A DNA stretch of 52,288 nt, from the NCBI GenBank assembly GCA_001783715.1, contig MFNF01000005.1, forward strand, positions 1 through 52,288, read 5' to 3'. Numbering within the stretch: the stretch's first letter is position 1; each line of letters opens with the position of its first letter. This document shows, piece by piece, positions 1-15,040 of this stretch. The translations under genes and the position numbers were made by a program. Under the pieces are notes generated by a model. That model had not been told where the DNA came from. It saw only the letters and a program-made list of their open reading frames with translations, and did not search any database. The DNA comes from Candidatus Lambdaproteobacteria bacterium RIFOXYD2_FULL_56_26. Its GTDB lineage: Bacteria > SAR324 > XYD2-FULL-50-16.

Positions 1-161
1 ATAAGTGGGGCATGACAGCATTTTATCGAATTGTCAATCTCGTGACTACACTATCTAGGTCAGGTTGCTGACAAAAGGACCCCAAAAGTGGAGAAAGGTA
101 CAGTTCCCTTGATTTAGGGGGCCAGTGTCATTACACTTGGGCTGCGCCAGGGAGAGTGACT

Positions 162-3100
162 ATGACCATCCGTATCAAACTGATCCACAACACCGAATAC
201 CGCTATGATCGGGCGGTTCACCTCAGTCCCCATGTGGTGCGCCTGAGACCGGCGGCCCACAGCCGCACGCCGATCTTGGCCTTTGGCTTCAAGGTTTTCC
301 CGGAACAGCACTTCATCAACTGGCAGCAAGACCCCTTCGGCAACTATCTGGCCCGGTTGGTTTTTCCTGAAAAAACCAAGAGCCTGAAGGTACAGGTCGA
401 GGTGGTTGCGGACCTGAAGGTGATCAATCCCTTTGACTTCTTTTTGGACGAAGAGGCGGCGAACTTTCCCTTTGCTTACGAAGAACGGCTGGCCAAGGAC
501 CTCGCCCCTTACCTGGAGCTGATGGACCAAGGGCCGCTGTTGTTGGACTGGATCAAAAGCCTGGAGTTGGAAAAACACCAAGGGGAGATTACGGTGGACT
601 TTTTGGTTTATCTGAACCAAAGGGTTTACAACGACTTGGCCTACACCATCCGCCTGGAACCGGGGGTACAGACCTGTGAGCAGACCTTGGCCAAACGCTC
701 CGGCTCCTGCCGGGATTCTGCTTGGCTGTTGGTTTCCGCCTTTAGGCACCTGGGGCTGGCGGCTCGGTTTGTTTCCGGTTATTTGGTCCAGCTCAAGGCG
801 GACGAAAAGTCCCTGGACGGCCCCAGCGGCCCGGCGGAAGACTTTACCGACCTCCATGCTTGGTGCGAGGTGTACATCCCTGGTGCAGGATGGGTGGGGC
901 TGGACCCGACCAGTGGGCTTTTTGCCGGTGAAGGACACATCCCCCTTTCGGCTACCCCCGACCCCCAAAGTGCAGCGCCGATCACCGGGGCCACGGACCT
1001 TTGTGAGGTAGAGTTTCTTTTTGAAAACAAAGTGGTCCGCATCCATGAAGACCCCCGGATCACCAAGCCCTATTCCCTGGAAGATTGGGAGCAGATCAAC
1101 AACCTGGGCCTCCAGGTGGACCAAGTACTGGCCGCCGAAGATGTCCGCCTGACCATCGGCGGTGAACCAACCTTCATTTCCGTGGACGACTACGAAGCGC
1201 CGGAATGGAACACCGCCGCCGACGGCACCCACAAACGGCAGCGGTCCAACGACCTCTTGCTGCGCCTCAAGGATCAGTTTGCCCCTGGGGCGGTCTTGCA
1301 GTTTGGCCAGGGCAAGTGGTACCCCGGTGAGCCTTTGCCTCGGTGGAAAAAGGCTTGTTATTGGCGCAAGGACGGGCTGCCGATTTGGCACAATTATGAC
1401 CGATTGGGCCTGGAAACCGAAAACTACGGTTACCAGAGCGGCGAGGGAAAAAGGTTTGCACAAAAGCTGGCCGAAGGGTTGCGAATCCCCAACCGGTATT
1501 GGATCCCCGCTTTTGAGGATCTGGCTTATTTCTTGTGGGAGGAAGGCAAGGTTCCCGCCAACCTGGACCCCAAGACGGTTAACCTCAAAGACCCTTTGGA
1601 ACGGCAAAAGCTGGCCCAATTGTTGGCCGGAGACTTGGGCGAAGAGGTGGCCTTTGTGCTGCCCTTGCGGTGGAACCAAGAAGACCAAGCCTTCCAAAGT
1701 TCCACTTGGCGGTTTCGGCGCAAAGAGCTTTACCTGATCCCCGGCAATTCCCCGGCGGGGCTGCGGCTGCCCTTGAACAGTTTGGCGGTCACCAAGGAAG
1801 AAAAGGAAAGGTTGGAGGCGGGCCGCTCCTTGTTTGAGCCCGCCCCGCCGCTCAAAGAACATCCTGGCGACTACCTCAGGCAGCCCCAGGAAGCCTCCTG
1901 GAAGGAAACGGTGACCACCGCCTTGACCTTGGAGATCAGGGAAGGGAAACTCTTTTTGTTCCTGCCCCCCTTTGTGGTCCTGGAGCCTTACTTGGCCTTG
2001 GTTGGCTTGATTGAATCGGTGGCCGAAGAGACCGGGCTCAAAGTGATTTTGGAAGGCTACGACCCTCCGCCGGACAACCGGCTGGAAAAATTTATGATCA
2101 CCCCCGACCCCGGAGTGATCGAAGTCAATGTCCATCCCTCCGCCTCTTGGCCCGAGCTGGTGGACAAAACCAAGGTCTTGTACGAACAGGCCAAGCTGGC
2201 CCGGTTGGGGACCGAAAAATACCTGCTTGACGGCAGGCCAACCGGAACCGGCGGGGGGAACCACGTCACCTTGGGCGGCAAGACCCCGGCAGACAGCCCC
2301 TTACTGCGCCGCCCCGAATTGTTACAAAGTTTGATCACCTACTGGCAACACCACCCGGGGCTTTCCTACCTTTTCTCCGGCCTGTTTGTTGGGCCGACCA
2401 GCCAAGCCCCGAGGGTGGACGAGGGCAGAGACACCGCCTTGTTTGAGCTGGAGCTGGCCTTTTCCCAGATCCCCAAAGGCGAGGTGGCCCAGCCTTGGTT
2501 GGTGGACCGGATCTTGCGCAACCTCTTGGTGGACATTTCGGGCAACACCCACCGGGCCGAGTTTTGTATCGACAAGCTCTACAGCCCTTCGGGGCCAGCG
2601 GGCCGGTTGGGGTTGCTGGAGTTTCGGGGGTATGAAATGCCCCCGCACTACCAGATGAACCTCTGCCAATTGCTGCTGATCCGTACCTTGGTGGCCCACT
2701 TTTGGAAAAACCCCTACCAAGGCAAACTGGTCCGTTGGGGGACCACCTTACACGACAAGTTTATGTTGCCCCATTACATCCAAGAAGACCTCAAGGAAGT
2801 GGTTTTGGAGTTGCAACAGGCAGGCTACCCGTTCCAGCTGGAATGGCTGGCTCCCTTTTTGGAATTCCGGTTCCCCCTGTATGGCCGGGTCCAGGTTGGG
2901 GAGGTTTCCCTGGAATTGACCATGGCCATTGAGCCTTGGAACGTGTTGGGGGAAGAGGTGACTGCCCAGGGGACCTCCAGGTTTGTGGACTCTTCGGTGG
3001 AACGGTTGCAGATCAAGCTGTTTGGCTTTGTACCCGAGCGGTTCCAGTTGCAGTGTAATGGCCGAGCGGTGCCGCTGCGCTCGACCGGGACCCAAGGGGA

Positions 3101-3500
3101 GTTTGTCGCCGGGATCAGGCATCTGGTCTGGAACCCTCCTTCGGCGCTGCACCCGACCATCCCGGTCGAGCCCAAGCTGACCTTTGACATCGTGGACCGG
3201 CGCAACAACACCGTGCTGGGGGGCTGCAACTACTTTGCTTCCCATCCAGGGGGCCGGAGTTACGAGTTTTTCCCGGTCAACAGTTTTGAGGCGGAGTCCA
3301 GAAGGATCAACCGGTTTTGGGACTTTGGGCACAGCCCCGAACCGTGGGTCCCCCAAGAGCCGGTGCCGATGGAAACCGCCACCAAAGTGGGCCGAACGGT
3401 GGAAGCGATCAAACGGCAGGGCAAGCCGCCGGTGGGCCAAATCAGAACCCCGGTGGACAACAGCGACTTTCCCTACACCCTTGATCTCAGGCTGCGATGA
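162..3500 (+). CDS. Large transglutaminase-like protein with DUF2126-type C-terminal region
   Basis: About 1,112 residues. Residues 1-100 resemble the bacterial transglutaminase N-terminal domain. A papain-like transglutaminase core follows, with the triad visible as Cys183 (GSCRD), His232 (DLHAW) and Asp248 (LDPTSG). The remaining ~800 residues, starting near the GGEPTF motif, match the DUF2126 extension typical of this very long family. In known genomes such proteins sit beside circularly permuted ATP-grasp and alpha-E proteins and are predicted to hydrolyse or transfer amide bonds in small peptides; the substrate is unknown. ATG at 162 is chosen over an upstream in-frame GTG at 156 because GGGAGAG ends 6 nt before it. 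The stop overlaps the next start (ATGA), implying translational coupling. No signal peptide is seen, so it is probably cytoplasmic. The family call is firm; the function is inferred. Confidence 0.9.
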   Translation: MTIRIKLIHNTEYRYDRAVHLSPHVVRLRPAAHSRTPILAFGFKVFPEQHFINWQQDPFGNYLARLVFPEKTKSLKVQVEVVADLKVINPFDFFLDEEAANFPFAYEERLAKDLAPYLELMDQGPLLLDWIKSLELEKHQGEITVDFLVYLNQRVYNDLAYTIRLEPGVQTCEQTLAKRSGSCRDSAWLLVSAFRHLGLAARFVSGYLVQLKADEKSLDGPSGPAEDFTDLHAWCEVYIPGAGWVGLDPTSGLFAGEGHIPLSATPDPQSAAPITGATDLCEVEFLFENKVVRIHEDPRITKPYSLEDWEQINNLGLQVDQVLAAEDVRLTIGGEPTFISVDDYEAPEWNTAADGTHKRQRSNDLLLRLKDQFAPGAVLQFGQGKWYPGEPLPRWKKACYWRKDGLPIWHNYDRLGLETENYGYQSGEGKRFAQKLAEGLRIPNRYWIPAFEDLAYFLWEEGKVPANLDPKTVNLKDPLERQKLAQLLAGDLGEEVAFVLPLRWNQEDQAFQSSTWRFRRKELYLIPGNSPAGLRLPLNSLAVTKEEKERLEAGRSLFEPAPPLKEHPGDYLRQPQEASWKETVTTALTLEIREGKLFLFLPPFVVLEPYLALVGLIESVAEETGLKVILEGYDPPPDNRLEKFMITPDPGVIEVNVHPSASWPELVDKTKVLYEQAKLARLGTEKYLLDGRPTGTGGGNHVTLGGKTPADSPLLRRPELLQSLITYWQHHPGLSYLFSGLFVGPTSQAPRVDEGRDTALFELELAFSQIPKGEVAQPWLVDRILRNLLVDISGNTHRAEFCIDKLYSPSGPAGRLGLLEFRGYEMPPHYQMNLCQLLLIRTLVAHFWKNPYQGKLVRWGTTLHDKFMLPHYIQEDLKEVVLELQQAGYPFQLEWLAPFLEFRFPLYGRVQVGEVSLELTMAIEPWNVLGEEVTAQGTSRFVDSSVERLQIKLFGFVPERFQLQCNGRAVPLRSTGTQGEFVAGIRHLVWNPPSALHPTIPVEPKLTFDIVDRRNNTVLGGCNYFASHPGGRSYEFFPVNSFEAESRRINRFWDFGHSPEPWVPQEPVPMETATKVGRTVEAIKRQGKPPVGQIRTPVDNSDFPYTLDLRLR

Positions 3501-6037
3501 ACCAAGGGCCTTCTTTGCTTGCCGCCTACCCCACTCTGACCCAAGGGTTTGACGAGTGGTTCTTTCCCGACGGAACCCTACGGGACCACTGGAAGGAGAT
3601 CGTCAAGGACTGGGAAGGCATGGGCTTTGAGGAACTGCTCAAAACCCACAGCCAAGCCCAGCTGATGCTCCGGGAAACCGGGGTGACCTATGAGGTGGGG
3701 GACTTCAAGAAAAAGGGACCTCGGCCTTGGCAGTTTGATGGACTGCCCTTTTTGGTCCAAGAGGCGGAATGGGAATTTTTGGAAAAGGGCCTCAAACAAC
3801 GGGCCAGACTGTTCAACGAGATTTTTAAAGACCTCTACGGCCCCCGGAAGTTGATCCGCCTAGGACTCTTGCCCCTGGAGCTGGTGCACCAACATGCCCT
3901 GTTCATCCGGGCCTGCAACGGGCTGTACGAGAACTGGCAAACCCCCTTGGTCCATTACGCCGCCGACATCGCCCGCGGCCCGGACGGAAGGTTTGTGGTG
4001 GTCCGGGACCACACCCAAGAAACCCCAGGGGCGGGTTATGCCATTGAAAATCGTAAGGCCATGGCCAAGGCGATGCCCGAGTTTTTTACCCGTTACCGGA
4101 TCCGCCGACTGAGGGAGTTTTTTAACTTTGTCCAAGAAGGGCTGCTGGAAAACGCCCCGGACCTGAGGGGCGAGGCCAACGTGGTGCTGCTCGCCCGGGG
4201 GACCGAACAGCCCAACCATTTTGAGAACGCCTATCTGGCCTCCTACCTGGGGATCACTTTGGTCCAGGGGGAGGACCTGATCTTTCGGGATGGCTCCATT
4301 TGGATGAAGTCCTTGGACGGCCTCAAACCGGTACACATCATCTTAAGACGGCTCGAAGACCGGCACCTGGACCCGCTGGAGATCGAAAGCGACGGCTTTT
4401 ACGGGGTGCCGGGCCTGATCGAAGCGGTCAGACGGGGGACCGTGACCCTGATCAACCCGGCCGGAGCGGGGGTTTTGGAGAATCCGGGGCTCTTCCCGTT
4501 TTTACCGGCCATTGCCCAGGAACTGTTGGGCGAGTCCCTGATTCTCCCGATGCCCGATACCTATTGGTGCGGTCAGGAGCAGGAAAAAAAGCAGGTCCTG
4601 GAGCAGATGGACCAGATGATCCTCCTGCCGGTGTTTCGCCCCGAAGGCTCCGCCTCGACCTTGGGTTTCCAGCTTTCGGCGGACCAGCGGCAGGAATGGG
4701 CCAAAAAGATCGAAGCGGCCCCAGGTGCTTATGTGGGCCAAAAGCTGCTCAGCACCTCGACCTTGCCGATCCTTTCCCCTACCGGGATTGAGCCTCGGCA
4801 CCTGATGACCCGGCTGTTTTTGACCGCCAAGGCCAACGAGTACCATGTAATGCCCGGCGGGCTTTCCCGGTGCGCCTTGAGCGGCGAGGTTACGGTGGTG
4901 CCCCACCAGACCGATGCCTTGGCCAAGGACACTTGGGTGATGGGTCACCATGCCCAACAACTGCCGCTGCAAAGCCAAAAAGGCACCTCCGAACGGATCA
5001 CCGAGCAGCTGACCACCCTTTCCTCAAGGAGCGCCCAACAGTTGTTTTGGGTGGGCCGTTATGCCGAGCGGGCGGAGATGACCTTGCGCTTTATGCGCAT
5101 CACCTTGCTACACTTTTTGCAAATCGCCGAGTATGACTCCCAGGCCGACCAAGAGGCGCTGGCGATCATGCTAAAAACCATCACTACCTTGACCGAAACC
5201 CTGCCGGGGTTCACCGGCGAGGGCGGGGAGGAGAGGCTGGCCAATCCTAAGGCGGAACTGATGGAATTGGTGGGCAACCCGAACCGTCCGGGCACCTTGG
5301 CCTTCAATCTACGGGCCTTGTTGCAGGCGACCTTTGCGGTCCGGGAACGTTGGTCCAGCGACACTTGGCGCATCTTGGACCAGCTCAAACAATGCCTGGA
5401 AGGGATGTGCGCCAAGGACCACGGGTTCAACAGCCTCCTGAGCGACCTGGACCGCACCGTGGTCCCTTTGGCGGCCTTTACCGGGCAAAACCTGGAGAAC
5501 ATGACCCAAGACTTGGGCTGGCGGTTGCTCATGCTCGGTCGGCGCTTGGAGCGAGCCTCGCTGACCGTCACCTTGATCCCGGCGATGTTGGGCTTGGCCA
5601 GAGACCCGATGGTGGACCAGATCGCCAAGGAAACCCTTTTGATCGCCATGGAAAGCCTGATCTCCTTCCGCCGTCTGCACCACACCAACTTTGGCACCAA
5701 GGAGGTCCTGCGCTTTTTGCTGATCAACAGCCAAAACCCCCGGTCCTTGATGTTCCAGTTGGAATCCTTGAGCGAACACCTCCGGCAGCTGCCCCCCTTT
5801 AAGATTGGCCGGGGCATCAAAGAGGAAGGCAAGCTGATCTTAAAAGCCTATGCGGACCTGAACCTGACCGAAATGAAAGACTTGGTGGAAGAAACCGAAG
5901 GGGAACGGCTGGGCCTGGAGGTTTTGAGCGCAGGCATCGCAAAACTGCTGGCCCAGGCTTCCGAACACATCAACAACACCTACTTTGCCCACGCCCTCAA
6001 ACGCCAGCAGTTGACCGGTGCCGAGGAGGCCGTATGA
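3497..6037 (+). CDS. Fused circularly permuted ATP-grasp and alpha-E domain protein
   Basis: 846 residues in two parts. Residues ~15-480 form a circularly permuted type-2 ATP-grasp domain, with the N-terminal FDEWFFPDG and GVTYEV motifs and NPAGAGVLENP near residue 320. Residues ~509-830 form an alpha-helical alpha-E (DUF403) domain that opens with a typical SRSAQQLFWVGRYAERAE signature. ATP-grasp enzymes of this group are predicted amidoligases that join amino acids or peptides using ATP; the alpha-E partner has no known activity. In many genomes the two parts are separate genes, as they are at 6940-9331 in this same window, so this is a natural fusion. It overlaps its neighbours by 4 nt at both ends (ATGA), so it belongs to a three-gene operon with the two transglutaminases. 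Confidence 0.9.
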   Translation: MNQGPSLLAAYPTLTQGFDEWFFPDGTLRDHWKEIVKDWEGMGFEELLKTHSQAQLMLRETGVTYEVGDFKKKGPRPWQFDGLPFLVQEAEWEFLEKGLKQRARLFNEIFKDLYGPRKLIRLGLLPLELVHQHALFIRACNGLYENWQTPLVHYAADIARGPDGRFVVVRDHTQETPGAGYAIENRKAMAKAMPEFFTRYRIRRLREFFNFVQEGLLENAPDLRGEANVVLLARGTEQPNHFENAYLASYLGITLVQGEDLIFRDGSIWMKSLDGLKPVHIILRRLEDRHLDPLEIESDGFYGVPGLIEAVRRGTVTLINPAGAGVLENPGLFPFLPAIAQELLGESLILPMPDTYWCGQEQEKKQVLEQMDQMILLPVFRPEGSASTLGFQLSADQRQEWAKKIEAAPGAYVGQKLLSTSTLPILSPTGIEPRHLMTRLFLTAKANEYHVMPGGLSRCALSGEVTVVPHQTDALAKDTWVMGHHAQQLPLQSQKGTSERITEQLTTLSSRSAQQLFWVGRYAERAEMTLRFMRITLLHFLQIAEYDSQADQEALAIMLKTITTLTETLPGFTGEGGEERLANPKAELMELVGNPNRPGTLAFNLRALLQATFAVRERWSSDTWRILDQLKQCLEGMCAKDHGFNSLLSDLDRTVVPLAAFTGQNLENMTQDLGWRLLMLGRRLERASLTVTLIPAMLGLARDPMVDQIAKETLLIAMESLISFRRLHHTNFGTKEVLRFLLINSQNPRSLMFQLESLSEHLRQLPPFKIGRGIKEEGKLILKAYADLNLTEMKDLVEETEGERLGLEVLSAGIAKLLAQASEHINNTYFAHALKRQQLTGAEEAV

Positions 6038-6936
6038 TCTACGAAATCACCCACACCACCCTTTACGACTACTCCGAACCGGTGAGCCTCAGCTACAACG
6101 AGGCACGGCTCTGCCCCCGGAGCTTCAGCCACCAGGTCTGCCAAAAAAGCGAGATCACCGTGTCTCCAAGGGCGATGGACTACTCCGAACGGCGGGACAT
6201 CTTCGGGAACAAGGTCAGCTTTTTTACGCTCCAAGAGCCCCACCAGAAGATGCAGGTGACCATGAGTTCCCTGGTGAACGTGGAGACCCTGGATGCGCCG
6301 GTTTCCGGGGACCATCTCTCCCCCTGGGAAGAAGCGGTGGGCTACCTCAGCCAACCTTCGAGCCTCAAGTTGGTGGAGGCCAAGGGATTTACCTTCGCCT
6401 CCCCCTTGCTGCCGCTTTTACCGGAGGTTTACGAATACGCCAAATCCAGCTTTACCCCAAGACGTTACCTGATGGATGCCGCCCTCGACCTGATGGACCG
6501 GATCCACCGTGACTTTGCCTACACCGCCGGGGCCACCAGCATCTCTACCCCGTTGAGCCAAGTCTTGCACAAACGCCAAGGGGTCTGCCAAGACTTCGCC
6601 CATTTGGCGATTGCCTGCCTGCGGTCCATGGGCTTGGCGGCGAGGTACGTGAGCGGGTACCTGGAAACCTTGCCGCCGGTGGGCAAGCCAAAGCTGGTCG
6701 GGGTGGACGCTTCTCATGCTTGGTTTTCCCTGTTTGTGCCCCACGAGGGGTGGGTGGACTTTGACCCGACCAACAACCTGATCCCCAACGACCGGCACAT
6801 CACCTGCGCCTGGGGCCGGGACTATGCGGACGTAACGCCGCTCAAAGGGGTGCTTTATGGCGGGGGGACTCACCAGCTCAAGGTGAGCGTGGACGTACGC
6901 AACCTGACCCCCCAGCGTCCATCCGTCCGGGGTTAG
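6034..6936 (+). CDS. Small transglutaminase family protein
   Basis: 300 residues. It has the bacterial transglutaminase N-terminal domain (YEITHTTLYDYSEPV) followed by the cysteine-protease-like core. The triad is readable: Cys185 in QGVCQDFAHL, His228 in DASHAW and Asp244 in DFDPTN. It is the short form of the family, without the DUF2126 extension seen in the gene at 162. The start overlaps the upstream stop (ATGA). The stop lies 3 nt from the stop of the convergent alpha-E gene, so the two gene sets meet tail to tail here. Its role is predicted to be amidase or peptidase action on the product of the neighbouring ATP-grasp enzymes; this rests on context only. Confidence 0.9.
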   Translation: MIYEITHTTLYDYSEPVSLSYNEARLCPRSFSHQVCQKSEITVSPRAMDYSERRDIFGNKVSFFTLQEPHQKMQVTMSSLVNVETLDAPVSGDHLSPWEEAVGYLSQPSSLKLVEAKGFTFASPLLPLLPEVYEYAKSSFTPRRYLMDAALDLMDRIHRDFAYTAGATSISTPLSQVLHKRQGVCQDFAHLAIACLRSMGLAARYVSGYLETLPPVGKPKLVGVDASHAWFSLFVPHEGWVDFDPTNNLIPNDRHITCAWGRDYADVTPLKGVLYGGGTHQLKVSVDVRNLTPQRPSVRG

Positions 6937-6939
6937 GGC

Positions 6940-7881
6940 TCAGGCGAAGAAGGACTCGTACACGGCGTTGCCCACCTTGTTGAGCCGAAGTTGGAATTGG
7001 TCGAGGTACTTGTGCAACGACAGCTCTAAAATATCGCTGGCTTCGGTGAAGTCGATCTCCGAGCGCAACAGCCCGATTTGTTTCTCCGGCTGGTTGGAAA
7101 AGTTCCCGTGCGGGGTCCCGCTGATCTGGTGCAGGCTGTTTTCCGCATGGCTCAAACAAAAGAGGATCGACCGCGGGAAATGGCCGTCCAAGACCAAAAA
7201 ATCCACCACCTGTTCGGGGGTGACTTGGCGGAACCTTTTTTTGTACATCTCCAAGGCGCTGGCCGAGTTGAGCAGCGCTCCCCAAATCAAACCATCGTAG
7301 GGGCTGAACTTTTGCCCCTTGGTTTTGGGCATCAGGGCAAAGGACTTGACATCCAAGATCCGGCTGGTCTTGTCCGCCCGTTCCAACATCCGGCCCAGGT
7401 TCAGAAAGTGCCAGCTTTGGCTGCGGCTTTGGGTGCCTTCGATCACCCCGGAAAACAAATGGGCGGTCTTGCGGATCTCCCCAAAAAATTCGTCCGGCTC
7501 CCGGCGCATCAGGGCGGCGGCTTTGGGGTGGGTGATCTGGTGGTAAAAATGGTTGACCGTTTCCCAGATTTCCTTGCTGATCGTTTCCCGGATGGACCGG
7601 GCGTTTTCCCTGGCTCGGATGGAACAGTTGATGATCGAGTTGGAATAGTCCCGGTTGAAGGTCAAAAAGTCCAACACGTTGTCCAGGTTGATTTGGTCGT
7701 AATGGAGCTTGAAGACCGCCTCGTCTCCGGTGACCGAAATCAAGGGACCCCAAAGTTCCAGTTCCTCTTGGGTAAACTCGGGCATCTGCATCAAATGGAC
7801 ATCCAGGAGGCGGCCAGTGTTGTCCGCCCGCTCCATGTACCGGCCCAACCAATAGACCGATTCGGCTACCCGACTAAGCAT
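6940..7881 (-). CDS. Stand-alone alpha-E domain protein (DUF403)
   Basis: 313 residues, predicted almost wholly helical. It opens with the family signature ESVYWLGRYMERADNTGR, closely matching the start of the alpha-E half of the fused protein at 3497. The family is found next to circularly permuted ATP-grasp genes and is thought to be a partner in synthesis of a peptide-like product, but no biochemical activity is established. The start codon lies inside the 3' end of the ATP-grasp gene upstream (8 nt overlap), so the pair is co-transcribed and probably co-translated. With the gene at 7874 it forms the split version of the fused protein. Confidence 0.9.
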   Translation of the reverse strand: MLSRVAESVYWLGRYMERADNTGRLLDVHLMQMPEFTQEELELWGPLISVTGDEAVFKLHYDQINLDNVLDFLTFNRDYSNSIINCSIRARENARSIRETISKEIWETVNHFYHQITHPKAAALMRREPDEFFGEIRKTAHLFSGVIEGTQSRSQSWHFLNLGRMLERADKTSRILDVKSFALMPKTKGQKFSPYDGLIWGALLNSASALEMYKKRFRQVTPEQVVDFLVLDGHFPRSILFCLSHAENSLHQISGTPHGNFSNQPEKQIGLLRSEIDFTEASDILELSLHKYLDQFQLRLNKVGNAVYESFFA

Positions 7882-9331
7882 CGGTCCCCTTGGTTTTGCC
7901 GGGCTCGATCACCCAGGTGTCTTTGGAACCGCCCCCTTGGCTGGAGTTGACCACCAGCGAACCTTTTTTGAGGGCCACTCGGGTCAAACCGCCGTTGAGC
8001 ACAAAAATCTCCTTCCCGTACAGGATAAAGGGCCGCAGGTCCACATGTCGCCCTTCCATGCCCGACTCTTGGACCACCACCGGGGCCCTGGAAAGGGAAA
8101 CCACCGGCTGGGCAATGTAGTTGTCCGGGTTGGCCAAAAGTTTTTCCTTGAACGCCTCCCGCTCTTTCTTGCTGGCTTTGGGGCCGATCAGGATCCCGTA
8201 GCCCCCCGATTCTGCCACCGGTTTGACCACCAGGTGCTCCAGGTTTTTGACCACAAAATCCAGCTCCGCCTTGTTCCGGCAAAGGTGGGTCTGCACGTTG
8301 GACAAAATGGGGTCTTCGCCCAGGTAATACTTGATGATCTGGGGGACAAAAGAATAGATCGCCTTGTCGTCCGAAACCCCGGTTCCCGGAGCGTTAACCA
8401 AGGCCACGTTGCCTTTGGCCCAAGCCTTCATGATGCCGGGCACGCCCAAAAGCGAATCGGGCCGGAACATTTTGGGGTCCAAAAAGTCGTCGTCCAGCCG
8501 CCGGTAGATGCTGTCCACCTTTTGCAGGCCCCGAGTGGTCCGCATGTAAACAAAGTCGTCCTCAACGATCAGATCGCTGCCTTGGACCAAGTCCACGGAC
8601 ATCTCTCGGGCCAAAAAGGCATGTTCAAAAAAGGCGGAGTTGTACATGCCCGGGGTTAGGACCGCCACCGTTGGGTTGTCCTTGTCCGGCACCAGATATT
8701 CGAGCATCTCCCGGAGTTTGGAGGGGTATTCCTCGACCGGGGAAATGTGGCTTGCCTGGAAAACGATCGGGAAAATCCGTTTCAAGATGGCCCGGTTTTC
8801 CAACACATAAGACACCCCGGAGGGGCAGCGCATGTTGTCTTCAAGCACCAGAAACTCACCCTGGTCATCCCGGACCAGATCGATGCCCGAGATATGGGTC
8901 CAGATGCCCCGAGGCGGCTTGATCCCCAAGAGTTGTTTGCGGTAGGCTTTGGAACTGAGAACCAGGTCCTTGGGGACCACCTTGTCCTTGAGGATCTTTT
9001 GGTCGCCGTAAACATCGGCTACAAAGCGGTTGAGCGCCTCTACCCTTTGTTTGAGCCCCAGCTCGATGTATTCCCATTCCCGGTGGGGGATGATCCGGGG
9101 CAGGATGTCGAAGGGGATGATGTCTTCTTTGGTTTCGTCGGTGTTGTACAGGGTAAAGGTGATCCCGGTTTCAAACATCAACGCCTCTGCGGCCTTTTGA
9201 CGGTTGTACAGTTCCCCTGGGTCCATTTCGTTGATTGTTTTGACGATCTTGCGGACGTAGCTGCGAGGCTTGCCGTCTTCCACAAAATATTCGTCAAAAA
9301 ACCCGTCTGTTTTGTATTGGTCGAATGTCAT
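7874..9331 (-). CDS. Stand-alone circularly permuted type-2 ATP-grasp protein
   Basis: 485 residues, a typical length for the family. It starts with GFFDEYFVEDG, has a GITFTLY motif near residue 56, and carries the conserved NAPGTGVSDDKAIYSFVP stretch and a later VKPVAESGGYG segment typical of the ATP-binding half. It is a predicted ATP-dependent amidoligase (carboxylate-amine ligase) with unknown substrates. The start is supported by AAGGAGA 5 nt upstream of the ATG. It is the first gene of a two-gene minus-strand unit with the alpha-E gene, and it converges on the fused copy and its two transglutaminases. No candidate peptide substrate gene is seen between the sets. Confidence 0.9.
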   Translation of the reverse strand: MTFDQYKTDGFFDEYFVEDGKPRSYVRKIVKTINEMDPGELYNRQKAAEALMFETGITFTLYNTDETKEDIIPFDILPRIIPHREWEYIELGLKQRVEALNRFVADVYGDQKILKDKVVPKDLVLSSKAYRKQLLGIKPPRGIWTHISGIDLVRDDQGEFLVLEDNMRCPSGVSYVLENRAILKRIFPIVFQASHISPVEEYPSKLREMLEYLVPDKDNPTVAVLTPGMYNSAFFEHAFLAREMSVDLVQGSDLIVEDDFVYMRTTRGLQKVDSIYRRLDDDFLDPKMFRPDSLLGVPGIMKAWAKGNVALVNAPGTGVSDDKAIYSFVPQIIKYYLGEDPILSNVQTHLCRNKAELDFVVKNLEHLVVKPVAESGGYGILIGPKASKKEREAFKEKLLANPDNYIAQPVVSLSRAPVVVQESGMEGRHVDLRPFILYGKEIFVLNGGLTRVALKKGSLVVNSSQGGGSKDTWVIEPGKTKGTDA

Positions 9332-9667: not shown

Positions 9668-9904
9668 TTATGAACTCAATCCACTTTTGGGTTTCGGCGA
9701 CAGCTTTCGGTAGAACTTCTTGAGCAGACCGGGCAGCTCCTCCAAGGGTTCAATCACCGGAAACCAATAATACTCAATCCAAGTTTGGCGATACAAAACC
9801 TGATCGTCTCGAAAGTTCGCCAAAAAAGTCTGTTCAAAGTGCTTCAATACGGCAAGGGCTTGCCTCGCCTTTTCACTGATTTCTTGGGGCGACAACATCG
9901 GCAT
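9668..9904 (-). CDS. Small hypothetical protein, last gene of the accessory operon
   Basis: 78 residues; the family is not recognised. It is soluble-looking, with an amphipathic helical N-terminus, an aromatic centre (IEYYWFPVIEP) and a basic C-terminus (KKFYRKLSPKPK). The start lies inside the 3' end of the MotB-like gene (32 nt overlap), with AAGG 6 nt before the second ATG (9898), which may be the real start. The overlap and shared direction place it in the same operon, and it may be a cytoplasmic accessory subunit. Support is modest because the frame is short. Confidence 0.5.
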   Translation of the reverse strand: MPMLSPQEISEKARQALAVLKHFEQTFLANFRDDQVLYRQTWIEYYWFPVIEPLEELPGLLKKFYRKLSPKPKSGLSS

Positions 9905-10553
9905 CCTTCATCACCGCTATAGGGAGCAAATACTTGCTCAATTGATCAATCTGATTTTGGTATTTACCAATATCTGTCAAGTCGCCCCTTTCCACCTTGA
10001 TGCGAAATCGGCAATCCTGCTTCTGGTCCACAACCGGCTTCACGGCTGCTAAAAATGCGGCCATATTCTGCCACCGCTGCAGGAGTTTTTTTGCCCCAAG
10101 CTCATCAGCCTTTTTTGATCGCTCTTCAGGCCAAGCCTTTTCGACTATTAGCATACCGTCCTTTTTGAGTGTGATTTTCAGCAAATTATCGCGTTTACCC
10201 TTTTCGGACCAACAAAAGGTAATGCTTCGCAGTTTTGATCGCATTTCTTCGATCTGCTTTTTTATCGCCTGATAGTTGGCGACCGCTTCACGATTGCCGG
10301 GTGTCAGTAGGCTCCAAGCCTCCGGCAGGTCGCTGGCCTTGGCCTGGGGATGTTGCGTTCGGACCTCTGTCCATGCTTTTGACAGTTCTTCATATTCCTT
10401 CTGCTCCTTTTGCAGGTCTTGGATGATTTGATAGGCACCCAGAGAAATGGTCAGCAGCAAGAAAACCAGAAGCAACATCAACTCGGTCAAGGTGGTTTGG
10501 AAAATGCTGGCTTTGCTTTTCTCCTGCTCTCGCCAAGGCTTTTTATCGGCCAC
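9873..10553 (-). CDS. Single-pass inner-membrane protein resembling the MotB/ExbD/ZorB stator partner
   Basis: 226 residues with one transmembrane helix at ~21-42 (TLTELMLLLVFLLLTISLG), then a short coiled coil and a mixed alpha/beta region. The helix follows the pattern of MotB, ExbD and ZorB, where an Asp at its start carries protons; here Glu24 sits at that place. The ExbD in this window (39245) has TPLIDVVFLLLIFF, which aligns well. No OmpA-like peptidoglycan-binding motif is visible in the last 150 residues, unlike MotB or ZorB, so the periplasmic part is probably different or very divergent. The GTG start is inside the end of the MotA-like gene (11 nt overlap), which supports a physical pair. 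Membership in the proton-channel superfamily is inferred from the helix and its partner. Confidence 0.65.
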   Translation of the reverse strand: MADKKPWREQEKSKASIFQTTLTELMLLLVFLLLTISLGAYQIIQDLQKEQKEYEELSKAWTEVRTQHPQAKASDLPEAWSLLTPGNREAVANYQAIKKQIEEMRSKLRSITFCWSEKGKRDNLLKITLKKDGMLIVEKAWPEERSKKADELGAKKLLQRWQNMAAFLAAVKPVVDQKQDCRFRIKVERGDLTDIGKYQNQIDQLSKYLLPIAVMKDADVVAPRNQ

Positions 10554-11748
10554 GGGTGAGTTCCTGATGATATTGTTGGGTGACTCGGGTCAGCGTGCCA
10601 AAAAAAGAAACGACCACCCCCTGAAAATCTGCAATCGAAGCTTTGAGAGTTTCAGTTTCTTTTGTACCCCAGTCCGCCTGTTCTTTTTTGATCGATTGCA
10701 AGGTGGAGGTCACTTCCTGGATGAGGTCTTTGATGTTCTTCAATAGCTCAGGAATTAACTGAAGGCCGGGACTCACCTTGCCCAGTTCCGCTCCGAAGCG
10801 ATTGAGATTCCCCGCCAAGGTTTCGAATGTTTGGAGGCTCTGGGGGGCGGCCTGGACGGCATCGCCAAAGGCTTTGACCTGTCCTACAGCCAGGGTGATG
10901 GCCTTCTGCTCCTCCCCCACGCTCCAGGTAAGGGATGCCAAGACCTCCGCAAGGGGCAAGAGCTGTGCGCCCAGGTTGACAAAATAATCCTCAAAGGTTT
11001 CGGTAAAAAGTTCTGCAGGTGGCCTAAAATCATTCAACTTTTTTACAAACCCGGAAACGGCGGCTGAGGCCTTCTTGGTATGGCCAGTCAACTCTTCGAG
11101 CAGCGCCGTGCTGTTGGTTTTTAGAGCTTTTTGCAGTTCTTCGCCGTTGGTATTGAGGCTTTGGGTGATTTGTGTGCCAATTCTTTCCAGATTCCGCAGC
11201 TGCTCACTGAGAACCTGCCTTGAGGCACCGGTAAAGGTGAGCAGTTCCTGATTTAGGGTTCGATAATTTTGTAGGGTCAGACGAATTTCATCACTGAGGT
11301 CGCCGAAGGCCACTTCAAGGTCTTCCTCGGCATCCTGACTCCCCCGGCCTTGCATCAAAAGCATTCGAATGAAGATTCCCACCAAGGTCGTCACCAAGGC
11401 GATGCCAAAATTGCCAATCGCATCGGCGATCAATTTGTCGTGATTAACCGCTGGCATGCCCGCCTTGGTTAAAAAAGAGATTTGACTGACTAGCAAAGAG
11501 GAAAGAGTGAAGACGAATCCCAAGAAGTAGACGCTGTCCGCCAAGTTTTCGTCGGTATCTAGCCCCCGGCCAAACTGGCGGTAAACCCAATGACCATAAA
11601 GAACCATCGGAATGACCGACAAAAAGACGGTTAGAATGGGGTTTGAATTTCCAGAGGCCTGAGTCAGAAGCAGCCCAAGCACAAAGTTTAAGATAAACCA
11701 TCGATTTACCTTATTAAAAAAGTGCTGTTTCCTTTTTATTTTATTCAT
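10543..11748 (-). CDS. MotA/ExbB/ZorA-like membrane protein with long helical tail
   Basis: About 401 residues. Four membrane helices are predicted at ~17-31, 37-55, 70-90 and 108-130. The last has the small-residue pattern GIALVTTLVGIF typical of the MotA/TolQ/ExbB family. About 270 residues of helical, coiled-coil-rich sequence follow, with a phasing of NTNGEELQKAL and LKASIADFQG type. Four helices plus a long cytoplasmic tail is the layout of ZorA in the Zorya phage-defence system. It is followed directly by a MotB-like gene. ATG 11748 is preferred to an in-frame TTG at 11760. Predicted role: channel or motor half of an ion-driven inner-membrane complex. Unlike Zorya, no helicase or nuclease gene is adjacent. 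Confidence 0.7.
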   Translation of the reverse strand: MNKIKRKQHFFNKVNRWFILNFVLGLLLTQASGNSNPILTVFLSVIPMVLYGHWVYRQFGRGLDTDENLADSVYFLGFVFTLSSLLVSQISFLTKAGMPAVNHDKLIADAIGNFGIALVTTLVGIFIRMLLMQGRGSQDAEEDLEVAFGDLSDEIRLTLQNYRTLNQELLTFTGASRQVLSEQLRNLERIGTQITQSLNTNGEELQKALKTNSTALLEELTGHTKKASAAVSGFVKKLNDFRPPAELFTETFEDYFVNLGAQLLPLAEVLASLTWSVGEEQKAITLAVGQVKAFGDAVQAAPQSLQTFETLAGNLNRFGAELGKVSPGLQLIPELLKNIKDLIQEVTSTLQSIKKEQADWGTKETETLKASIADFQGVVVSFFGTLTRVTQQYHQELTRGR

Positions 11749-11769
11749 CTTTTTGTCCAAAAAATCAAG

Positions 11770-12582
11770 TTAAGGAACCTTTCGCACGAGACTCACCCTG
11801 ACTCCTTGAGCGCCAAGGTATGACAGCCAGAACTCGATGAATTGCCTACTCCCTTGCAAAGATTCGGCGCTAGGCCGTTGGAAGAAGTCGATCTCCATCT
11901 CCACTTGGTTCAGGTCCGTCTGGTTCTCTTGGCCATAGGCGGTTTGAGAAAATCTTTCGTAGCTGCCGACTTCCGCATACAAAGAAAATTTGGGTGGCAT
12001 GTGCTGCAATAGGTCAGAAGCCAGGAGCATTCGGCGCCGTCTGATGGTTGGAGAAAAGTCCTTCAGGAAACCGATTTCTCGGATCATCTCAAAGATCGGC
12101 GAGGTGTTGCTGGTGCTGTTGATCCGCAGGGCCTGCAATTCTTCCTGCAATGGGGCCTCGAAATACCGGTCAAACTTGGCCTTTACCTGCTTGGGGTTCT
12201 GATACAAGGCGTTGGCTTGATCCCCCCTTCCAGGGCTGCATTTGGAGAACAAGGGTTTGGGGCCGATCAGGTTGTCCGCATCCAGCACAAACATCGAAAG
12301 TTTCTCGCCGGGCTCCAACCCCTCCTTGAGTTCCAGGATCCGCCTTCCCAGAAAATTCATTTGGGATTCGGTCAAGGGGTCGGTCTTGTCGATCAGGACA
12401 ACTTGGTGCGACAGGAGCGGGACATTTTTGGGGCACAATGTGTCGGGATCGATTTGTGAGAGATTGGCCCAATAGGCGGCCAAACCTCCCAAAACCGCTA
12501 CAATAGCGACAACCACGACTATGAGATAAATCCCGTATCGATCATGTTTTCCCAAAGGCTTTCTTTTTCTGCTTCGGTTCAA
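11770..12582 (-). CDS. Membrane-anchored protein with a divergent vWA-like motif pattern
   Basis: About 270 residues. It has a basic N-terminus, one membrane helix (~18-38), then a ~220-residue outer domain. Three spaced motifs resemble a metal-ion-dependent adhesion site: Asp65 in LIDKTDPLT after a hydrophobic strand, a Ser/Thr cluster near 156-161 (STSNTSP), and Asp190 in LLASDLLQ after another strand. This suggests a divergent von Willebrand A fold, but it is not a textbook match. Cys50 and Cys115 are also present. The TTG at 12582 is chosen because GGAG lies 8 nt upstream; the open frame extends further up but overlaps the preceding gene and looks unlike protein there. It sits between the four-helix protein and the MotA-like protein in the same operon. 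Confidence 0.65.
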   Translation of the reverse strand: MNRSRKRKPLGKHDRYGIYLIVVVVAIVAVLGGLAAYWANLSQIDPDTLCPKNVPLLSHQVVLIDKTDPLTESQMNFLGRRILELKEGLEPGEKLSMFVLDADNLIGPKPLFSKCSPGRGDQANALYQNPKQVKAKFDRYFEAPLQEELQALRINSTSNTSPIFEMIREIGFLKDFSPTIRRRRMLLASDLLQHMPPKFSLYAEVGSYERFSQTAYGQENQTDLNQVEMEIDFFQRPSAESLQGSRQFIEFWLSYLGAQGVRVSLVRKVP

Positions 12583-12631
12583 AAAGTGGGCTCCAGACGG
12601 GGGTGGATTCCTGAGGCTTGTCCTGCCTCGG

Positions 12632-14035
12632 TCATTGGGCGACCGGATTTTGGACCGTTTCCGTATCCACCAACCGCTCGGCTTCCTGTTCGACCCGTTT
12701 GAAGAAGTCCTCGATGGCTTTGATGGCCCCTTCCCTCTGCTCCACCAACTTTCCTTTTGTGTCATTGCGCTGGCTCTCGATGTTCTCTAAAGACTCTTCG
12801 TATTGATTCGCCTTTTTTTCCAACTTGCTCAAATCAACCCCTCGGAGTTCTACATGCTCAAAGGTAGACTGGGCACCAAAATAGGCGGGCACCTTGTTTT
12901 CTTGCCGGACTTCTTGGTTGATCTTCCGGTAATACATCAACAAGGCGTTGTAACCTTTGGTATAGACCTTCAAGGAATGGTCATAGGCCTCCATTAAGGC
13001 ATAGGCCCGCTCCAAGAGTTTGCGGTAGTCCCGGATCAGGCGCCGTTTGTCCTGGATCAATTGATCCAACGTTTCGGTTTTTTGTTCGTAGACAGTTGTG
13101 ATGTCTTCGATCAGAGTTTCTTGCTCGTTGGAAATCACTTCCAGGGAGTGTTCGTAGTTCCGGTGGATTGATCCGTATCCAGGATAGCGGTCATCGGCGG
13201 TGTAGGCTTTCAACAGCGCAGCCAGCGCAAAGACCAAGCCAAACACGAACATCACCCAGGCATCGAAGGCCACCACATTCAAGGGGTTTTGCCAGAAAGC
13301 GATTACCGCCGCCACCCCGGCCCGCTCCGGGTCAATTTCCAGCTGAGCCCGAAAGTGGGCGGCCAACAGGTTGTTGGCGAGCAGCAAGACGGTGTAGATG
13401 CAGGTCCCGATCAAACCCATCAGCTTGTATTTGGGGAGGATGTGGTTGAATTGCCGCAACACCAAGTCCCCGACCAAGGCGGACATGCCCACATTCACAC
13501 AAGAAATCAACAGGGCCTGGAACAAACCACCCAAGATTCCCAGTTCGCTGCCCTTGGAGAAAAAATAGCTGTTGGCGATCGACTCGGCCACCACCGCCCC
13601 CACGATCAAGGACCAATGCAAAATCATCGAGGCGGGATACCGGGGCTCCCAATCCACCTGATTGCGCAGTTTGAAGGCCCGCAATTCCCGAAGCAGCTTG
13701 CGCTCCTTGCGAAAGGCGTTGACCAGCGCCCCGAACCGGTGTTTTTTTAGGGTTTCCACCTCGTTTTCCGCAGACCGGGTCAAGGTGGCAAATTCCTTGG
13801 ACTCGATTTCCGTTTCCAATTTCAACTGGGATTCGGACAGCCGGTTCAGGGATTCCAAGGTCTCCTGTCGGCGGCCCTCCAAAAGAAATTCCATGTGTTG
13901 TCTGAGCTTCTCTTGCGGAGGGTCGAATTCCGTATCTTCGGCTTTGGGCAGCCCTTTGGCGCCTTGTTTGAGCGCCATTTCACGGACCTGCAGGCTCTTC
14001 TCGGCTTGGTCAAAATCAAATTCAAAATCAGACAT
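12632..14035 (-). CDS. Four-helix inner-membrane protein with flanking coiled coils
   Basis: 467 residues; the family is not recognised. Residues 1-130 are soluble and strongly helical (coiled coil at ~45-120). Four membrane helices follow at ~137-159, 165-194, 204-228 and 252-277, with acidic residues inside or at the edge of the membrane (Glu151, Asp190, Asp258). Residues ~290-467 form another long coiled coil with Lys/Glu-rich heptads. Coiled coil, four helices, coiled coil suggests a scaffold or channel subunit with both ends in the cytoplasm. It is the first gene of the accessory operon, with GCGAG 5 nt before the ATG. It is not a MotA homologue by eye: the order of long loops and the lack of the GxxxxTTLxG motif argue against it. 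Confidence 0.7.
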   Translation of the reverse strand: MSDFEFDFDQAEKSLQVREMALKQGAKGLPKAEDTEFDPPQEKLRQHMEFLLEGRRQETLESLNRLSESQLKLETEIESKEFATLTRSAENEVETLKKHRFGALVNAFRKERKLLRELRAFKLRNQVDWEPRYPASMILHWSLIVGAVVAESIANSYFFSKGSELGILGGLFQALLISCVNVGMSALVGDLVLRQFNHILPKYKLMGLIGTCIYTVLLLANNLLAAHFRAQLEIDPERAGVAAVIAFWQNPLNVVAFDAWVMFVFGLVFALAALLKAYTADDRYPGYGSIHRNYEHSLEVISNEQETLIEDITTVYEQKTETLDQLIQDKRRLIRDYRKLLERAYALMEAYDHSLKVYTKGYNALLMYYRKINQEVRQENKVPAYFGAQSTFEHVELRGVDLSKLEKKANQYEESLENIESQRNDTKGKLVEQREGAIKAIEDFFKRVEQEAERLVDTETVQNPVAQ

Positions 14036-14127
14036 AGTTTCTCGCAGGTATGAGTTATGTACAATATGCGGTAGCCCAAAACTGTAGACCCTGGCGTAGG
14101 ATCTGCATCTAATTGGATTTACGGATT

Positions 14128-14856
14128 TTATCTCTTTCTTTCAGCCTTGATTTCCTTAGTCCTCTCCCTAATCCTTTCAATCTCATCCTGAGTGAATTCC
14201 CGGATGCGGGCCAACAGCACCTTCTTTGCTTCGACATCCCGGATTTCTACCGTTTAAACATTGCCGGACACCTTGGTCCGCATGGCCGGGAATCTGCGGT
14301 TCCGAGTCCATTCCGGGCGACCGGGCTAGGCATCCCTGGCTTCGGTGATCTCGGACAAGGCAACATCCCATTCCAACCTCAAGGCCAAGGGCTCTTGCTA
14401 TTTCTTACCAGGATTTCTATCAACTCTTTGAGCTTTTGACAAGGTTTCCAACTCGTTCTTCGGTCAGCAGGTCTTCGGCGCTGAGCCGAACTACGGCATC
14501 AACAACTCTAAAGTCTTGGTAGGCGGTGGACTTGGCTACCCGGAAAGTCTCCCTGATGTAGGACCCAAAGGCCTTGGCGTGCTTTTCCTCCAGGAGTCGG
14601 TCCCGGTGCCGGTAGATCAGGCAGAGCTTTTGGTAGATTTTGACCTTGGAGCTAGCCTCAAAGTGATCAATCCCCTGGTAAAGGTCCAGGATCAGCTATT
14701 CTTCCTGTTTGAGGTCAATGCTTGGGACTGGGTACCGACCTTGGGCTTGGTCGATGGTGAGCCCCTTGATCGGGGCAGGTAGGAGGGCTTTTTCTTTGCC
14801 GCCTTTATTTGTGGGCTTCTTAATGGCTGGGCGCTCTGCTGAGGGGTGTTTTTTTA
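14128..14856 (-). pseudogene. Decayed gene, possibly a DNA-binding plasmid- or phage-type protein
   Basis: Reading the minus strand gives protein-like stretches broken by several lesions. The first runs to LKQEE and then hits an in-frame TAG (14696-14698). It continues in the same frame through KVKIYQKLCLIYRHRD and a helix-turn-helix-like FGSYIRETFRVAKSTAYQ. The frame shifts near 14430-14450, after which there are several stops (one at 14398-14400). It ends with IREFTQDEIERIRERTKE and a TAA at 14128. No good start codon remains. The HTH-like segment followed by a charged helical end suggests a replication, partition or phage regulator, but no family is recognised. It lies between the tRNA array and the accessory operon, as expected for the relic of a mobile element integrated near tRNA genes. 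Confidence 0.55.
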
Positions 14857-14917
14857 TTCCCGCTTCATTCCCGCTTCAATGCAGACCTTGGGGGTCTTTC
14901 CCGCTTATTCCCGCTTT
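14856..14917. repeat. Four direct repeats arranged around a palindrome
   Basis: The 9-mer TTCCCGCTT occurs four times in the same direction, at 14857, 14868, 14898 and 14908. The two pairs have spacings of 11 and 10 nt, about one helical turn. Between the pairs lies a perfect inverted repeat, AGACC-ttggg-GGTCT (14883-14897). The array sits just upstream of the decayed gene on the minus strand. It looks like a protein-binding array (iteron, partition site or autoregulatory operator) left from a mobile element. Confidence 0.5.
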
Positions 14918-14955
14918 CTTTTTTCTTTAAAAACTCTTTATTTTCAACGGTAGTC

Positions 14956-15040
14956 TGGTGCGAGAGGAGAGACTCGAACTCTCACATCCGAAGATACCAG
15001 ATCCTAAGTCTGGCGCGTCTGCCAATTCCGCCACTCTCGC
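14956..15040 (-). tRNA. tRNA-Leu (anticodon UAG)
   Basis: Acceptor stem GCGAGAG/CTCTCGC, discriminator A and an encoded CCA. The anticodon arm is CCAGA-CTTAGGA-TCTGG, giving UAG. A variable arm is present, as in class II tRNAs, and the T loop is GTTCGAGTC. It is the last tRNA of the array in transcription order. Confidence 0.95.

Follow-up and report, generated by a model that had tools for sequence, protein, structure and literature searches.

Positions 14035 to 9668 on the minus strand of the window, the 52,288-nucleotide stretch of contig MFNF01000005.1 from Candidatus Lambdaproteobacteria bacterium RIFOXYD2_FULL_56_26 (SAR324) analysed here, hold an operon of five tightly packed open reading frames (ORFs), g1 to g5. 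On balance, and by a narrow measure, this operon probably encodes a machine of the cell envelope, ion-driven and anchored to the wall, that would attack incoming DNA or block it and whose relatives have exchangeable, predicted periplasmic nucleases. A more specific proposal is tentative, possible rather than probable: that the operon represents a new class of immunity in which a wall-anchored motor with a periplasmic nuclease cuts phage or plasmid DNA crossing the envelope, with modular effectors (SNase, HNH or nuclease-free). Curated models for the core protein families are missing from Pfam, NCBIfam and PADLOC, so that annotation of defence systems at present overlooks such loci. Neither Pfam nor NCBIfam has a model whose curated cut-off is passed by any of the proteins g1 to g5, and PADLOC gives no firm match, only weak coiled-coil or MotB-type scores for g3 and g4. 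No description of the gene set was found in searches of an open-access library. A sequence-only reading of the same DNA had described a tight five-gene operon on the minus strand in a combination that it did not recognise; the ORFs lie where it placed them, and profile and structure searches have matched the set to no named system.

The four genes g1, g2, g3 and g4 are found in the same order and on one strand in all 93 complete loci, which belong to Alpha- and Gammaproteobacteria, Campylobacterota and SAR324, so the arrangement is not due to chance. The homologues and loci were selected through a g3 motif, with which 84,980 species genomes were scanned; 182 relatives were obtained, 80 of these were kept and further loci were added. 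Separate tblastn searches with g2, g1 and g3 led to the same alphaproteobacterial plasmids, with the four genes in the conserved order. The distribution is patchy: g1 is present in 3 of 52 genomes of its own phylum, and relatives were found in 15 of 385 sampled alphaproteobacterial genomes (about 4%) and in a handful among 369 gammaproteobacterial genomes. Plasmid-borne copies are common and lie on large plasmids, 11 of 24 being predicted conjugative. Two loci in metagenome-assembled genomes of Flavobacteriaceae (L015 and L070) nest beside alphaproteobacterial loci, may be contamination and are not counted as Bacteroidota. No relative of g1 was found in the phage records searched. Full g1-g4 operons are present on two IMG/VR contigs called viral (L149 and L150); L150 also carries a UmuC-like gene, a resolvase-type recombinase and a neighbouring SNase, and could therefore represent a genomic island instead of a phage.

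Of 65 non-redundant four-gene loci, 34 have a linked nuclease, which is an SNase (staphylococcal-type nuclease) fused to g4 in 10, an HNH domain fused to g4 in 5 and the product, predicted to be secreted, of a separate gene nearby in 19. The fused SNase stands C-terminal of the OmpA region of g4 (the two proteins tested gave Pfam E = 7.7e-10 and 1.2e-14), and the GmrSD_C/HNH domain stands at the C-terminus of g4 (E from 2.3e-11 to 2.4e-13). The separate SNase genes have an N-terminal hydrophobic segment and lie mostly within 1.3 kb. Control DNA from the same genomes (360 kb) contained neither SNase nor GmrSD_C/HNH. In a tree based on g1 and g2, a quick tree with long branches, the starred branches force at least eight changes of the SNase-fused state. 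Several switches among fused, separate and absent nuclease are forced by the same tree, for example between the sisters L014 (separate) and L021 (fused). By analogy with the topology of MotB-type proteins, the g4-fused nucleases would be periplasmic.

Profile searches identify g4 (9873..10553, minus strand, 226 amino acids) as a ZorB/MotB-like protein at the family level, as had been claimed from the sequence. The family profile matches ZorB of type II (8VVI) at E = 4.4e-16 and also PomB/MotB. The predicted single-pass protein fits the pattern of the B subunit in 5:2 ion-driven motors, with an N-terminal transmembrane (TM) segment carrying an acidic residue followed by a domain whose periplasmic side is predicted from the family. 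All 91 parsed g4 proteins have Glu at this position, which is Glu24 in the window copy. The C-terminal part is an OmpA domain in most alphaproteobacterial loci. In the window, a CW-type periplasmic domain with the pattern CW...CRF (9873..10214) stands where OmpA would be, and the same type is found in other SAR324, in Legionella, in Campylobacterota and in some Rhodospirillales; a CW profile built without the window g4 still detects it. The sequence-only reading had found no OmpA or nuclease domain, which is correct for the window g4 but does not extend to the relatives, where g4 mostly ends in OmpA and, in 15 non-redundant loci, in SNase or HNH.

The evidence on g3 (10543..11760, minus strand) is weaker than had been implied when it was called MotA/ExbB/ZorA-like. 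The protein has 405 amino acids from TTG at 11760 or 401 from ATG at 11748, the latter being the probable start. In a comparison with hhalign, the TM core gives P = 1.1e-5 with a ZorA2 family, spanning the two core helices in the correct TM register, and P = 0.004 with a set of TolQ, ExbB and MotA; as yardsticks, ZorA against TolQ gives P = 1.3e-4 and an unrelated control P = 0.035. The structural model has four N-terminal helices and then long helices, with a tail of about 265 residues that is read as cytoplasmic. No match was found with Pfam MotA_ExbB (PF01618), or with the PDB when the TM-core profile was used; the fold search with the model was not significant, and none of the curated ZorA models came near its cut-off. 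Matches of full-length g3 in the PDB were discarded as coiled-coil noise, and weak Pfam matches (ATG17, apolipoproteins) as coiled-coil artefacts.

The remaining core genes encode the partners that set the operon apart. According to the AlphaFold2 model, g2 (11770..12765, minus strand, 331 amino acids, start ATG at 12765) has a vWA fold, in agreement with the sequence-only reading of an anchored vWA-like protein. It has a basic N-terminus, one TM segment and a predicted periplasmic vWA domain (11770..12411). The model has a mean predicted local distance difference test score of 94.2, and vWA-type proteins fill the top ranks in a Foldseek search of the PDB (best E 1.5e-5), with Rpn10, TFIIH p44, BatB, vWF A1 and integrin I domains as top matches. 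Invariant positions in the alignment are C111, C176, D126, D129, S222-P223 and D251. Compared with the canonical metal ion-dependent adhesion site, DxSxS...T...D, the motifs DxTD, S-P and S-D stand at plausible places, as judged from conservation and not from geometry, and fit a degenerate metal site. The invariant pair of cysteines would likewise fit a disulfide in the periplasm.

The first gene, g1 (12632..14035, minus strand), encodes a membrane protein of 467 amino acids. It had been described as a four-helix coiled-coil membrane protein; membrane location and coiled coils stand, and hydropathy gives a better description as four TM segments (residues about 135-272) flanked by coiled-coil regions, which are read as cytoplasmic. 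A motif, DD(R/P)YPGYG, is conserved after the fourth TM segment, and six residues are invariant in an alignment of 44 members (E151, G166, G169, H227, R229 and Y369). The conserved residues sit within the TM region and just C-terminal of it. In Pfam, NCBIfam and PADLOC, g1 belongs to no family, and it has no relative of known family. A g1-g2 pair with no close homologue of g3 or g4 nearby is found in seven loci (L006, L152, L156, L160, L161, L162 and L163). In L161 the gene after the pair resembles a VirD4/TraG coupling protein, and in L156 tatABC-like genes lie downstream of the pair.

The defence-island setting that had been suggested for the operon does not apply to the window itself, which is no clear defence island, but applies to many relatives. 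A neighbourhood survey, also proposed in the sequence-only reading, confirmed that g1-g4 recur together, often near defence genes and with no such enrichment in control regions. For 104 neighbour proteins encoded no further than 5 kb from accessory loci, PADLOC gave 147 family matches, a tally of families in which the number of distinct matching proteins is not itemised. For 104 control proteins of the same genomes there were 11 family matches, mostly of housekeeping type; the enrichment covers the loci that remained after about 20 Rhizobium tropici-type loci had been left out of the neighbour set as redundant. The families matched by the neighbour proteins include Cas9, Cas10, type IIG, type II restriction-modification, HEC-05, PD-Lambda-1, SduA, SngA and UzuA. 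A type IIG protein (L030), a type II methyltransferase (L071) and an MkoA-like protein (L026) were confirmed one by one. Zincin/ArdC-type and relaxase genes lie close to some relatives. In nine loci, among them L076, L078, L085, L087, L018, L027 and L044, the operon has genes nearby for DUF4236 proteins, part of which also contain SH3 domains.

A mechanism can be outlined from these parts. By analogy with ZorAB, g3 and g4 would form the motor, a g3 pentamer round a g4 dimer, with Glu24 of g4 as the putative ion carrier. The vWA domain of g2 in the periplasm may serve as a sensor or a coupling arm, and g1 may be a four-TM scaffold whose cytoplasmic coils contact the long tail of g3. Such a machine would most likely guard the entry of DNA through the envelope, from phage and possibly from plasmids, by sensing or gripping the entry event. 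The effector in half of the relatives would be the periplasmic nuclease, fused to g4 or encoded alongside, which would cut the passing DNA. For the nuclease-free copy in the window, it can only be guessed that the machine blocks the site of entry, that it leaks ions or that g5 is the effector. We infer the 5:2 stoichiometry, the ion flow, the topology, the direction of signalling and the antiphage function of this machine. If a motor does place a nuclease in the periplasm, self and non-self would be told apart by location alone, because the host chromosome is never located there. To our knowledge, most known antiphage systems work in the cytoplasm. The exchangeable nuclease also offers a direct way to test how Zorya-type motors contribute to defence.

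The earlier interpretation as an ion-driven complex related to ZorAB with a different set of partners is supported. Like Zorya types I-III, the operon and its relatives have a motor pair with a ZorB-like and an apparently ZorA-like member, an A subunit with a long tail that is predicted to be cytoplasmic and a single-pass B subunit; many relatives also have a defence-island setting, and in most of them, though not in the window, g4 has an OmpA-type periplasmic domain. Membership of Zorya was nevertheless rejected, as the effectors ZorC to ZorG are absent and Glu replaces the Asp of ZorB. Searches with the five window genes in Pfam, PADLOC and NCBIfam found no match to ZorC and ZorD, ZorE, or ZorF and ZorG, and the partners are instead the four-TM coiled-coil and periplasmic vWA proteins. 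The effectors of Zorya are cytoplasmic, whereas the nucleases of the relatives, fused to the B subunit or beside it, are periplasmic by predicted topology. The ion-carrying residue of ZorB is Asp, D24/D21 (PMC11890865). A further subtype of Zorya, in which the g3 tail relays the signal of a ZorAB-type motor to an effector in the cytoplasm and g1 and g2 are type-specific partners, would agree with the kinship of g4 to ZorB II, the similarity of the g3 core to ZorA2 and the ZorA-like helical tail, but given these differences in effectors, residue and topology it is quite improbable. Compared with MotAB, TolQR and ExbBD, the motor architecture, the threonines in the TM helices of the A subunit and the acidic TM residue of the B subunit are alike, whereas the lack of a MotA_ExbB match in g3, its long helical tail and the other partners differ. 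The membrane-bound nuclease SNIPE, which attacks phage DNA during injection, is a precedent for cutting at entry (PMC13190303). Nuclease attack on DNA at entry is what is proposed for the operon as well, but SNIPE consists of one protein, has its GIY-YIG nuclease in the cytoplasm and lacks a motor.

Several observations weigh against a DNA-attacking machine. The window operon has no clear defence neighbours and belongs to the nuclease-free variant, about 20 Rhizobium tropici-type loci occupy one stable chromosomal site with neither defence genes nor nuclease, a single profile comparison ties g3 to ZorA/MotA, and the seven g1-g2 pairs with no close motor homologue, one beside a VirD4-like gene, mean that this pair may have another role. 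The stable Rhizobium site and the missing nuclease in the window would suit a force transducer driven by the proton motive force, whose role would be in housekeeping or in the envelope (upkeep of the outer membrane, adhesion, gliding or secretion) and whose linkage to nucleases and defence would be secondary. Inner-membrane-tethered periplasmic vWA proteins beside TolQ/TolR-like motor genes have been proposed as force transducers (PMC12204202). The tethered vWA protein adjoining a 5:2-type motor is shared with them, whereas the operon vWA protein accompanies a separate ZorB-like subunit and a four-TM protein of no known family, and nucleases occur in relatives. The TM segment of the window g2 (RYGIYLIVVVVAIVAVLGGLAAYW), the only one read by eye, has neither the SHLS motif nor the TM Asp of these transducers. 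Nuclease linkage in about half of the loci, the defence neighbours relative to the control and the patchy, plasmid-borne distribution speak against a housekeeping role, which appears rather unlikely. A barrier to conjugation or DNA uptake instead of phage, where a periplasmic nuclease digests incoming plasmid or free DNA in competition between plasmids or genomic islands, would agree with the frequency on large plasmids, some of them predicted to be conjugative, the nearby zincin/ArdC-type and relaxase genes and the VirD4-like gene adjoining one pair. It is unlikely, since chromosomal copies and two on predicted viral contigs exist as well and general phage-defence genes are among the neighbours. 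An envelope machine directed at incoming DNA is the reading preferred here.

The last gene of the window operon, g5 (9668..9904, minus strand), encodes a predicted soluble protein of 78 amino acids and overlaps g4; it is recognised as an ORF and mainly by position. A small gene of 58-88 amino acids, g5-like by position, lies directly 3' of g4 in several CW-type loci. The encoded proteins have little sequence in common but mostly end in a basic, amphipathic, tryptophan-containing C-terminus. The conserved core is the four genes g1-g4, and of the five-gene unit first described, the fifth gene recurs mainly with CW-type g4. The complete set of five is found again in G009, a genome of the same family and one of the three in the phylum with g1 (L005, 508-5128), where it adjoins heavy-metal efflux genes. 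The similarity between g5 and its counterpart there is very weak (15%), and counterpart status rests mainly on position. After g5, G009 has a sixth gene (L005, 5155-5982) for a protein of 275 amino acids with several hydrophobic stretches and a weak DUF4800 match under the cut-off; it has no counterpart in the window.

By hydropathy, g1 has four TM segments, g2 one, g3 several in its N-terminal part, g4 one and g5 none. The genes g1 and g2 overlap by 134 bp, and the following junctions are +9 bp (g2/g3), -11 bp (g3/g4) and -32 bp (g4/g5). The GC content is lower in g1-g5 (0.47-0.53) than in the window as a whole (mean 0.572), which is consistent with horizontal acquisition but short of proof. 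The operon is flanked by transglutaminase and ATP-grasp genes on one side and by a decayed repeat, a tRNA cluster and RNase PH on the other. Positions 1-9331 carry transglutaminase-like, circularly permuted ATP-grasp and alpha-E type genes, which from the reading of their ORFs are unrelated to the operon as far as can be seen. The decayed repeat occupies 14120-14985, between g1 and the tRNA cluster, and shares 80-83% identity with four or more further sites in the same genome (C52, C11, C62 and C9). It also adjoins tRNAs and RNase PH in G009 (C31), and the copy in C52, which is longer and open, includes a stretch resembling a helix-turn-helix.

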